A stretch of DNA of 64,000 nucleotides from Candidatus Kirkpatrickella diaphorinae (lineage in GTDB: Bacteria; Pseudomonadota; Alphaproteobacteria; Acetobacterales; Acetobacteraceae), in contig NZ_CP107052.1 in the NCBI RefSeq assembly GCF_025736875.1, positions 670,001-734,000 of the forward strand, in the 5' to 3' direction. This document shows, piece by piece, positions 56,701 to 62,241 of the stretch. Both the position numbers and the translations under genes were made by a program. The first letter of the stretch is position 1. Every line of letters begins with the position of its first letter. The notes beneath the pieces are model-generated. The model did no database searches. It had not been told where the DNA came from and saw only the letters and a list, made by a program, of their open reading frames with translations.

Positions 56701-57495
56701 ATGCGCATCATGACCTGGAACATCAATTCTCTTCGGCTGAGATTACCGCTCCTCCAACAGATCGTCATGCGCGATCAGCCGGATATTCTCTGCTTGCAGG
56801 AGACGAAAGTCCCTGATGATCTCTTTCCCGCAGAAGCCTTGGCGGCGCTCGGCTTTAAATACCAGCATTTTACCGGGATGAAGAGCTATAATGGCGTTGC
56901 CATTCTTTCCAGGACGCCTTTCATCCGCGCTTTAGAGACGCCGATCTGGTGTGAGAAGTCCGATTGTCGCCATAATGCGGTTGAAATTGGTGACCCTCAA
57001 AAGCCGATCACGATCCATAACTTTTACGTGCCCGCGGGTGGTGATATCCCCGACCCGGTCGAAAACCCCAAATTTGCCCATAAGCTGAGATTTCTCGATG
57101 AAGTCAAAGCGTGGTTTGCTGCCCATCGTCCTGAGCGCGCCATTCTCGTTGGAGACCTAAATACCGCGCCGCTTGAACAAGATGTATGGAGTCACAAGCA
57201 ATTGCTGAATGTGGTCTGCCATACAGAGCCGGAAGTCAGACGCCACGTGGCCTGGCAGAATACTGGTTTCACCGACGTGATGCGCGTCATGGTCCCCGCT
57301 GATCAGAAACTCTACACATGGTGGTCTTACCGCAATCGGGACTGGGCCGCGTCTAACCGTGGTCGTCGCCTCGACCATATTTAGGTTTCTGACGATATCG
57401 CCGCGCAATTTGAGACCATGCGCGTCTTGCGCGATATCAGAGGTGCGGAAGGCCCATCCGACCACGTGCCCGTTTTTGCGGATATCGCCCTGTAA
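56701..57495 (+). pseudogene. xthA: Exodeoxyribonuclease III, interrupted by an in-frame TAG
   Basis: From ATG 56701 (MRIMTWNINSLRLRL) the frame runs 227 codons to TAG (57382-57384) directly after RRLDHI, then continues open for 36 codons (VSDDIAAQFETMRV... to SDHVPVFADIAL) to TAA at 57493-57495. The full 264-codon length fits ExoIII. Catalytic E34 (CLQETKV), the Tyr of HNFYVPAGGD and the DxN of VGDLNTAP are kept, but the essential SDH histidine lies past the stop. Family members have Trp at the stop position (LDHIWVS), so TGG to TAG is likely. The truncated product should be inactive. Confidence 0.85.
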
Positions 57496-58446: not shown

Positions 58447-58986
58447 GTGACAACACGACAAAGTTTTCGATTTTTTCACGACAATTACGCGCATTTACGG
58501 ACTCGGTATTGCCGGTCGCGCCTCTTCTATAGAGGGTATGTTTTTCCGGCTTCCATTGGGGAAAATGGTCTGACGTGCTGCAAAGGCGAGGGTGATCTCG
58601 CGACTCCAGTCGGAGTCCTTCCGCTCCGACGCGTATTTTACCGTGCAGATCGGACCCATCCCCCCGAGACGGGTCTGCCCTGCCGCGCCATCAGGCCGGA
58701 TGATGGCTGGTGTGATGACCCTGAAAGCTTAACCTATAACCGCCTCATCCAGCGCCCCCATGCGGCGCGTCATGAGACGCTCATGCGGGATGACCACGCT
58801 TATGACATCGTGGCCGTGCTGGGCTGGAATGACGACCCGCCCAAGCCGGGACAGGGCTCCGCAATATTCCTGCATCAAAAGCCCCAAAGCGGTGTGACAG
58901 CCGGGTGCATCGCCCTTTCGCCACGTGATCTGCGTTATTTCCTCAGTCTCAATCCGAAGGGAATCATCGTCCATCCTTCAGGATGA
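58447..58986 (+). CDS. L,D-transpeptidase (YkuD fold)
   Basis: 179 residues from GTG 58447, with GATGAGGAT upstream. The catalytic block SAIFLHQKPQSGVTAGCIAL has H143 and C154, fitting HxxxxxxxxxxGC of the YkuD family, preceded by GDLATPVGVLPLRRVFYR. No signal peptide is visible, as in a branch of this family whose site of action is unclear. It would form 3-3 cross-links or attach lipoprotein to peptidoglycan if exported. The 3' end overlaps the convergent antiporter gene by nine bases. Confidence 0.88.
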   Translation: MTTRQSFRFFHDNYAHLRTRYCRSRLFYRGYVFPASIGENGLTCCKGEGDLATPVGVLPLRRVFYRADRTHPPETGLPCRAIRPDDGWCDDPESLTYNRLIQRPHAARHETLMRDDHAYDIVAVLGWNDDPPKPGQGSAIFLHQKPQSGVTAGCIALSPRDLRYFLSLNPKGIIVHPSG

Positions 58987-60846
58987 CGCGTCCTTAGTCG
59001 GCGTTTCTGCCGTCGCGGATGGCGGGCCCGCGAATTCCTGTATCGCCGGCAGACTTTGTGGGACAAAACTGAAAAGCAGATCGCCTGTTCCCGGCTTCAG
59101 CTTCGGGCCGTCTTCTGTGGAGTAAATGGTGATCGACACACCCTTTTTGACGTAAAACAGGTCCAGCCGTGCTGTATTGACTCCGATGGAGGGCAGAATT
59201 GCCTCATCCACGGTGAAACATCTGAAGCGCCAGTTCTTCTTATAAAGCGTTTCGAAGAGACTGTAATTCCAAGACGGCTCACCCATCAGGCGTCCCCGCG
59301 CATCGCGGGAGAGGCCGTGATGGAAATCCATGCGCGACACACCCGGACTGATCTGGAAGACACGTTGCCGCCCCATATCGGGGGCGAGATGGGCACAGAT
59401 CAAACCATTATAAATCGCATCCGGCGTGGCGGCGATCAGGTAATCACCGGGCCGCTCCTCCAACGCCTCCTGCCCGAAGGGCGACAGGACTTCGGCCCGC
59501 AATGTGGGCACGCCATTCCTCGCAGCAGGCATCAAGGCGGTTGAGCGGTAATCAACGAGCAGGACGGGGAGTTTTTCCCGGTGCACCGTGGCGGCGAGAT
59601 TACTGACCCAGGGTGAAGCGCCGACCAGCATGAGGACGGGCTCATTTGACAATGTCAGGCCAAGGACACGCGCCAGCGGGCGCAGTGAAAACCCATGGAA
59701 AATCATCGTGCCGCCAATGATCGCAAAAATGGCGGGCATGATCACATCTGCACTGCTATAACCAGAATCCGCAATGCGAAGCCCCGCCGCGCCAGCGACC
59801 GCGGCGGCCACAATGCCGCGTGGTGCGATCCAGGCGACAAAGAGGCGTTCCTGCCAGGTCAGGTCGGAGCGAATGGTTGAAAGCAGAATGGCGACGGGCC
59901 GCACAACAAACAACACCGTTAACATCAGCGCAACGATGGAGAATGACAGGCGCGTCAGCACGTCACGTTGAAGATCCGCCGTCATGAGGATGAACAGCAC
60001 GGCAACGACCAAAGAAACGAGCGCCTCCTTGACCCGCCTTAATTGTGCCATACCCGGCACATGCAGATTGGTCAGCGCCATGCCGAAAACGGTTGCGCCA
60101 ATCAGTCCGGCACCTTCCATGAAAGTTGTGCACAGCGCGAAGATCAGCAATGCCAGCGTCAGGAGGAGCGGGGTTTTAAGTGTCTCCGGCATTAAGTCCC
60201 GCACGAAGAGCGCGCGCACGCCGTAGGCGGGTAGGATCCCGGCCGCGACGGAAAGGGCGGAGGAGGCCAGCAGGTCCGGGAGGGTCAGGCGTAGAAACCC
60301 TTGCGTCCCGATCGGCACGGGGGCGACGACAATCTGCAACACGACGGCGGCAAGGATGGCGCCAATCGGGTCATTGATGATCGCCTCCCATCTGAGGAAA
60401 GCGGCGACGCGGGTGCTGAGCTTGTTGAGGCGTAAAAGCGGCAGCACGACGGTGGGGCCCGTCACGGTGATGATCGCACCGAAAAGAGCGGCCACCTCCC
60501 AATCCATTTTCCCGACTTCGTAAGCGGCAGCCCAGCCAAGGCCCCAACTGAGCGGCAGGGCCAGAAAGATCAGGCGCTTCACGCCGTCACCCGCCTTCTG
60601 CAACTGGCGGAAATCAAGGAGCAGGCCACCCTCGAAAACGATAATGGCGACTAGAGACGAGACGAGTGGCCGGAAGAGCCAACCCAGAGATTCTGACGGA
60701 TGCAATATGCCCAGCCCCGGCCCGAAAGCCAGTCCAAGGCAGAAAAGTATGACAATGGCGGGCAGTTTGAAGCGCCACGCCACCCATTGCGCCGCGACAC
60801 CGGCGCCGAGTGTCAGGCATAGTCCTATCAGAATTGCAGTGGCCAT
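58978..60846 (-). CDS. CPA1-type sodium/proton antiporter with cytoplasmic RCK-like domain
   Basis: 622 residues; ATG 60846 after GGGAG. About twelve membrane segments, with FGAIITVTGPTVVLPLLRLN and the ion-binding pair in EAIINDPIGAILAAV (ND). From about residue 400 a soluble region starts with a Rossmann-like strand (EPVLMLVGASPWVSNLAATV), as in NhaP/KefB-type proteins with a TrkA-N-like domain. It likely exchanges Na or K for protons, useful for an acid-producing bacterium (inference). Confidence 0.9.
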   Translation of the reverse strand: MATAILIGLCLTLGAGVAAQWVAWRFKLPAIVILFCLGLAFGPGLGILHPSESLGWLFRPLVSSLVAIIVFEGGLLLDFRQLQKAGDGVKRLIFLALPLSWGLGWAAAYEVGKMDWEVAALFGAIITVTGPTVVLPLLRLNKLSTRVAAFLRWEAIINDPIGAILAAVVLQIVVAPVPIGTQGFLRLTLPDLLASSALSVAAGILPAYGVRALFVRDLMPETLKTPLLLTLALLIFALCTTFMEGAGLIGATVFGMALTNLHVPGMAQLRRVKEALVSLVVAVLFILMTADLQRDVLTRLSFSIVALMLTVLFVVRPVAILLSTIRSDLTWQERLFVAWIAPRGIVAAAVAGAAGLRIADSGYSSADVIMPAIFAIIGGTMIFHGFSLRPLARVLGLTLSNEPVLMLVGASPWVSNLAATVHREKLPVLLVDYRSTALMPAARNGVPTLRAEVLSPFGQEALEERPGDYLIAATPDAIYNGLICAHLAPDMGRQRVFQISPGVSRMDFHHGLSRDARGRLMGEPSWNYSLFETLYKKNWRFRCFTVDEAILPSIGVNTARLDLFYVKKGVSITIYSTEDGPKLKPGTGDLLFSFVPQSLPAIQEFAGPPSATAETPTKDASS

Positions 60847-60948: not shown

Positions 60949-62241
60949 TTACGCGTCTTTCCTTACCAGAGTCGCGGCGAAAAAACCGTCCGTGTGGTTT
61001 GTCGCGGGCGTCAGGCTGAGTTGCTTCTCTCCGCGCAGATGGGGCGGAAGGTGCGCAGAATCCGGCGCGGTCGGTGAAAAGGCGTCATGGCGCTGGCAGA
61101 ATGCAGCAATCTGATCCTCATTCTCCGCCGGAAGGAGGGAGCATGTGGCATAAACAAGCCGCCCACCCGGACGGACGAGCCGCGCAGCCGTGTCGAGGAT
61201 CCGGGCCTGTTTGACGACAAGTTCCTCAATGTCATTTCTGGAAAGGTGAATCCGCGCATCAGGATTACGCCGCCATGTGCCGGAGCCTGAGCAGGGCGCG
61301 TCCACCAGCACGCGATCAAACCGCCCTTCCCGCCTTTTGACCCATTTATCACCGGATGTGAAAATATGGCGCTCGACATTGTGAACGCCTGCCCGCCTCA
61401 GTCTTTTGACCGCACCTTCCAATCGTGGTGCGGAGACATCGCAGGCGGTGATATGACCGCGATTTTCCATGAGCATGGCGAGGGCCAGCGTCTTGCCGCC
61501 TGCCCCGGCGCAGAAATCAACGATCCTCTCTCCCGGCTGCGGGTCGACACAGGCTGCGATGAGCTGGCTGCCCTCATCGTGGATTTCAATCCAACCCTCC
61601 TTGAAGGCAGCCGTACCGGTAACGGACAGGCGCGACGGCGCGCGCAGGCCCCAGGGCGATAAAGGCGTTTCTGTGACGTGGATCTGCTCTTCCGCCAGAT
61701 TTTTCTTTGCTGAAGCACGATCAGATTTCAGGAGGTTCACCCGAAGGTCGAGCGGGGCGGGCGCATCCATGGCGCGCATCTCTTCCTCCAGCCGGTCACC
61801 AAAACGCGCGACCAGCGTCTCTTCCAAGAATTTCGGGTATTCCAGCCGCACGTCCTGCGGCATGGCCGCATCATCCAATGTGCGCCCGGCCAGGGCTTCC
61901 AGCCCTCTCGCCTCCCGCATGGATAAGGGAGATTGCGCGAAGCGATCCCCGTCAAAAAGACGCGCTACATCCGACACCGCCTCACCGGAGAAAATTAGCG
62001 ATGCAGCGCAGAGAAGACGGGGGGACGCGCCGCCATCAATGGGGGTCAGGTGCCAATGCAAGCGCTTCCACTTGCGCAGAACGTCCCACACAATGCCGGA
62101 AATTGCGCGCCGGTCACCGCCACCAATAAAGCGACGGTCACGGAAGAACTGGTTGGCCGTGGCGTCAGCCGGGCGGCGCGGGTGATTTTCGATCGCGCAG
62201 AGGAGATCAATGGCAGAAGATAAACGTGCTTTAGGGGTCAT
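60949..62241 (-). CDS. rsmB: RsmB-like 16S rRNA m5C methyltransferase
   Basis: 430 residues; ATG 62241 after AGGGGT. An N-terminal NusB-like region (CAIENHPRRPADATANQFFR) is followed by the SAM site VDFCAGAGGKTLALAML, then the two cysteines of RNA m5C methyltransferases: catalytic region ATCSLLPAENE and VDAPCSGSGTWRRNP. It methylates 16S rRNA (C967 in E. coli). It follows guaB by 23 bases on the same strand. Confidence 0.91.
   Translation of the reverse strand: MTPKARLSSAIDLLCAIENHPRRPADATANQFFRDRRFIGGGDRRAISGIVWDVLRKWKRLHWHLTPIDGGASPRLLCAASLIFSGEAVSDVARLFDGDRFAQSPLSMREARGLEALAGRTLDDAAMPQDVRLEYPKFLEETLVARFGDRLEEEMRAMDAPAPLDLRVNLLKSDRASAKKNLAEEQIHVTETPLSPWGLRAPSRLSVTGTAAFKEGWIEIHDEGSQLIAACVDPQPGERIVDFCAGAGGKTLALAMLMENRGHITACDVSAPRLEGAVKRLRRAGVHNVERHIFTSGDKWVKRREGRFDRVLVDAPCSGSGTWRRNPDARIHLSRNDIEELVVKQARILDTAARLVRPGGRLVYATCSLLPAENEDQIAAFCQRHDAFSPTAPDSAHLPPHLRGEKQLSLTPATNHTDGFFAATLVRKDA

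Follow-up and report, generated by a model that had tools for sequence, protein, structure and literature searches.

Stochastic loss of redundant DNA-repair genes is described for the Sodalis endosymbionts of lice, where XthA and Nfo show perfect reciprocal loss and MutM and MutY reciprocal retention (PMC11137140), and in the insect symbionts of the genus Asaia, replication, recombination and repair are listed among the pathways richest in pseudogenes (PMC8092202). Two Xth-family genes in one genome have also been described, for example in Caulobacter, where xthA is present twice and nfo is absent (PMC1839093), and in Neisseria, where two Xth-family enzymes share out the work (PMC6294502). Here we describe an exonuclease III gene, xthA, that is interrupted by an in-frame amber codon in the psyllid symbiont Candidatus Kirkpatrickella diaphorinae (genome of 2,176,471 bp). 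The window referred to below is the whole stretch of DNA analyzed, 64,000 nucleotides in length.

Structure and conservation of the interrupted xthA gene

Translation of the frame at 56701-57495 (plus strand) of the window yields 227 exonuclease III-like residues ending in RRLDHI, followed by an amber codon at codon 228 and then, in the same frame, by 36 residues (VSDD...SDHVPVFADIAL) that include SDHVPV and run to a TAA without any further lesion. This confirmed the first-pass annotation, which had placed an in-frame amber in xthA ahead of the SDH motif. The frame is not a chance one, since its first 227 residues match the exodeoxyribonuclease III model TIGR00633 (E 9.8e-44), passing its curated cut-off (149.8 bits against 99.05); against the narrower model TIGR00195 they score 144.8, i.e., below the cut-off of 182.55. 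The gene is flanked by uvrC on one side and by a response-regulator-like gene on the other, both encoded on the opposite strand.

Table 1. Parts of the interrupted xthA gene, in window coordinates
Feature	Coordinates	Strand	Evidence
Truncated xthA, exonuclease III family, 227 codons and amber	56701..57384	+	Translation; TIGR00633; Exo_endo_phos to 200/225; keeps E34, D152, N154, D225
In-frame TAG, codon 228	57382..57384	+	TGG in congener; Trp in 109/109 relative loci examined
Remnant C-terminus, 36 codons with S253-D254-H255, then TAA	57385..57495	+	Translation; alignment to relatives

Our sample of the genus consisted of two genomes, that of Ca. Kirkpatrickella diaphorinae (G000) and that of a congener (G001; 1,966,088 bp), which we infer to be the symbiont, also of the Acetobacteraceae, that lives in the planthopper Trypetimorpha occidentalis; the two are 93% identical in DNA over 3.7 kb around xthA. 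The clade has a third, cultured member, Sorlinia euscelidii (PMC11493185). In the congener xthA is intact, with 264 codons and TGG at codon 228. We also examined 109 relative loci, made up of the best 80 of 360 from one search and 29 from another, with some species perhaps present twice; a motif search read TGG at codon 228 in 108 of these, and the 109th (L099) likewise encodes Trp. The stop is therefore premature relative to the intact orthologs, and both the proposed TGG to TAG change and the statement that Trp is usual after LDHI/L were borne out. After removal of duplicates, 103 of the 109 loci were aligned, 101 of them besides the two congeners, and Trp228, Asp254 and His255 are each present in 101 of 101. 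As far as sampled, these sequences suggest that the Trp to amber change is specific to the Ca. Kirkpatrickella diaphorinae lineage.

The 36-codon tail aligns to that of the congener in frame and without gaps, with synonymous differences in 11 codons and two amino-acid differences. Counted as base differences, the tail (codons 229-264) carries 11 synonymous and 2 amino-acid-changing ones (pN/pS 0.060), against 39 and 7 in the body (codons 1-227; pN/pS 0.050), and the 2 amino-acid-changing differences observed in the tail compare with approximately 33 expected under neutrality over the whole divergence. Relaxed selection thus hardly shows in the tail, as expected for a recent stop; since its pN/pS is low like that of the body, selection would have acted on the tail during most of the period after the two genomes separated. 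This agrees with the first of the two options, a recent or a compensated event, that the first-pass annotation had drawn from the clean tail. At positions 46, 51, 71 and 73 of the protein, Ca. Kirkpatrickella diaphorinae has the commonest residue of the family and the congener a rare one, and positions 177, 219, 241 and 250, where the two also differ, are variable across the family; as a counter-point, at position 53 it is the congener's residue that is the commoner in the family.

Readings of the amber codon

We read xthA as a nonsense pseudogene of very recent origin, in an insect symbiont whose genome is at an early stage of erosion, and give this reading a probability of roughly 0.78. A G-to-A change would have converted the Trp228 codon from TGG to TAG after the split from the congener, as the comparison indicates; the product would stop short of the end of the catalytic domain, so that Asp254-His255 is missing, and would most likely be inactive or unstable; and the loss may have been tolerated because an intact second Xth (Xth2) remains and a host-restricted lifestyle would relax selection. 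The gene would then exemplify the stochastic loss, known in insect symbionts, of repair genes that are redundant. A counter-point is that a constrained tail would equally be left by readthrough or by a sequencing error.

The main rival to a recent nonsense mutation is that the TAG is an error of consensus or assembly, or an allele carried by a minority among the insects sampled, with xthA in fact intact. Such an error would fit the Trp that all 109 relative loci encode, the clean remainder of the frame and the constrained tail. We nevertheless consider it unlikely, given that the genome is a single contig and 99.99% complete, that nonsense changes at TGG are common in the genus (9 TGG-to-stop changes in the congener in the region sampled), and that pseudogenes have already been reported for the Ca. 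Kirkpatrickella diaphorinae genome.

The first-pass annotation had also allowed that the stop is read through. A suppressor or near-cognate tRNA would then decode the amber and some full-length enzyme would be made, for which the 36 clean and constrained codons 3′ of the TAG would speak. Our search for an amber suppressor did not favor this: 45 tRNA genes were found with Rfam, and among the 45 tRNAs read by ARAGORN in the stretches taken there is none with a CTA anticodon, while a pattern search aimed at tRNAs of this kind returned four places, two of which are tRNA-Glu genes and two of which hold no tRNA. For this genome 53 tRNAs and three 16S genes have been published (PMC11493185). Eight tRNAs thus lie outside the suppressor search, and readthrough by a near-cognate tRNA requires no special tRNA. 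Since tRNAs with the anticodons GAT and TGC, which are usual in rRNA operons, are absent from the list of 45, some of these eight may lie in rRNA operons. That these operons are masked in the genome sequence is only a guess, on which our 16S search is silent, since it gave 0 matches here and failed in 5 of 14 control genomes as well.

The use of TAG elsewhere in the genome also argues against readthrough. In 264 kb we sampled 185 coding-like open reading frames, of which 112 end in TGA, 61 in TAA and 11 in TAG, the stop of one being unresolved. Five stops in these 264 kb face a sense codon in the congener (two TGA, two TAA and the xthA TAG), so that the TAG of xthA is the only one among the 11 seen to do so; the other 10 were not seen facing sense, which does not by itself demonstrate that they align to a stop. 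TAG thus behaves like an ordinary stop in this sample, and readthrough, with or without a suppressor, is very improbable. Reassignment of TAG was judged unlikely, with no CTA tRNA among the 45 and no sign of recoding in the 185 frames. A lower probability still attaches to the idea that low-level readthrough yields a little full-length exonuclease III, so that reduced repair would be an initial stage on the way to loss of the gene.

The product that ends at residue 227 lacks the complete catalytic set, which includes the C-terminal Asp-His, and the earlier claim that the stop cuts off the C-terminus with the catalytic-motif histidine proved correct. Because the stop precedes Asp254 and His255, which all 101 aligned relatives share, the truncated XthA is probably inactive, judging from its sequence. 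That it still functions is scarcely credible, since, although it keeps E34, D152, N154 and D225, each likewise invariant in 101 of 101 aligned relatives, it is without that Asp-His pair and without the last 25 of the 225 positions of the Pfam profile Exo_endo_phos, all of which the XthA of the congener covers, and the C-terminal histidine is essential in E. coli ExoIII.

Remaining AP endonucleases

The first-pass annotation described the lesion as loss of the main AP endonuclease. One Xth-family gene does appear to be broken, and the word "main" is doubtful. The second AP endonuclease that it proposed looking for is present, in that we found an intact Xth2 at G000:C1:271491-272258 (minus strand, 256 codons from a TTG), which is intact in the congener too; each of the 23 other family genomes searched (G001-G023) has a match to a close relative of XthA and another to a second Xth that is more distant. 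Xth2 passes TIGR00633 and also TIGR00195 (220.5 against the cut-off of 182.55), whereas the intact XthA of the congener passes TIGR00633 only (174.9 with TIGR00195), and Xth2 therefore fits the ExoIII models better than an intact XthA does. With Xth2 intact and fitting better, the role of XthA as the main AP endonuclease of Ca. Kirkpatrickella diaphorinae is unproven.

A search for endonuclease IV (Nfo, TIGR00587) that was positive in 10 of 14 control genomes gave no match in any of 5 Acetobacteraceae genomes, and this enzyme was rejected as a back-up for xthA on these counts. Since no Nfo was found and Xth2 is intact, Ca. Kirkpatrickella diaphorinae keeps one recognizable AP endonuclease of these two families. 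In the PDB, 2jc4 and the NExo-labelled 6fk4/6fk5 rank among the top matches of XthA as well as of Xth2. XthA may be NExo-like, which would mean that it has no AP endonuclease activity; the alignments disagree on its residue in the column of NExo H167, which is Cys173 in one and His174 in another, with these columns read by eye.

Repair-gene loss in the genus and comparison with known systems

The genomes of Ca. Kirkpatrickella diaphorinae and the Trypetimorpha occidentalis symbiont are described as co-linear, with 70 and 831 pseudogenes, respectively (PMC11264691). In our own comparison, 62 of 184 coding-like open reading frames of Ca. Kirkpatrickella diaphorinae are lesioned in the congener and 37 of 207 coding-like frames of the congener are lesioned in Ca. 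Kirkpatrickella diaphorinae, figures that are not pseudogene counts (we use the published ones instead) and of which the second is inflated, because many of the congener's frames are probably fragments of genes already broken there and some apparent lesions precede the recognized domain. Individual frames differ in both directions. A potassium/proton antiporter-like gene (window 58978-60846) and the neighboring 430-codon gene (window 60949-62241) are open in Ca. Kirkpatrickella diaphorinae, whereas their matches in the congener are spread over several frames, which would fit frameshifts in that genome. Conversely, the congener has open frames for an HlyD-like adaptor (L113:16725-17618) and an outer-membrane efflux protein (L167:8085-9518), whose counterparts in Ca. 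Kirkpatrickella diaphorinae show single-base frame differences near the 5′ end, possibly before the true starts.

Among other repair genes, mutM (TIGR00577) is intact in Ca. Kirkpatrickella diaphorinae and lies in three pieces in the congener, one of them with an internal TGA (G001:C1:600823-601654). The mutS gene, complete in Ca. Kirkpatrickella diaphorinae, is split over two frames in the congener and scores below the cut-off (G001:C1:936318-938938), and is therefore probably broken there, as judged from its sequence. Two HhH-GPD glycosylases are open in both genomes, and two other Acetobacteraceae searched have three each; the uracil glycosylase model TIGR00628 was found in 0 of 4 genomes, in a search with 6 of 14 controls positive and Caulobacter not among these. 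The repair genes that are broken thus differ between the two relatives, and xthA does not belong to the genes lost first in the genus, since the congener, although far more eroded, has it intact. A broken xthA in one genome, with a broken mutM and a split mutS in the other, fits a largely chance order of loss among redundant repair genes.

We found no literature titles on xthA in Ca. Kirkpatrickella diaphorinae, the genome paper (doi 10.1099/ijsem.0.006111) being outside the scope of this search, and "xth" has 0 occurrences in the available text of two papers that mention Kirkpatrickella (PMC11264691, PMC11493185) and in the main text of the Asaia erosion paper (PMC8092202). The xthA gene described here cleanly illustrates how a repair gene is lost at an early stage of symbiont genome erosion, and taken alone it is one data point.

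Set beside the described systems, the xthA lesion is nothing unusual for an insect symbiont whose genome has begun to erode, and is one more instance of a known process. Asaia belongs to the same family, Acetobacteraceae, as Ca. Kirkpatrickella diaphorinae, and repair genes are described as eroding there too (PMC8092202). The presence of two Xth-family enzymes in one genome is likewise described for NExo and NApe of Neisseria meningitidis (PMC6294502), whereas XthA and Xth2 are known here from sequence. A parallel in outcome is that in louse Sodalis (PMC11137140), where one of two AP endonucleases is likewise inactivated and the other kept; the pair described there is XthA and Nfo, whereas in Ca. 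Kirkpatrickella diaphorinae, a member of the Acetobacteraceae in which no Nfo was found, it consists of two Xth paralogs, one of which carries a single recent nonsense change.
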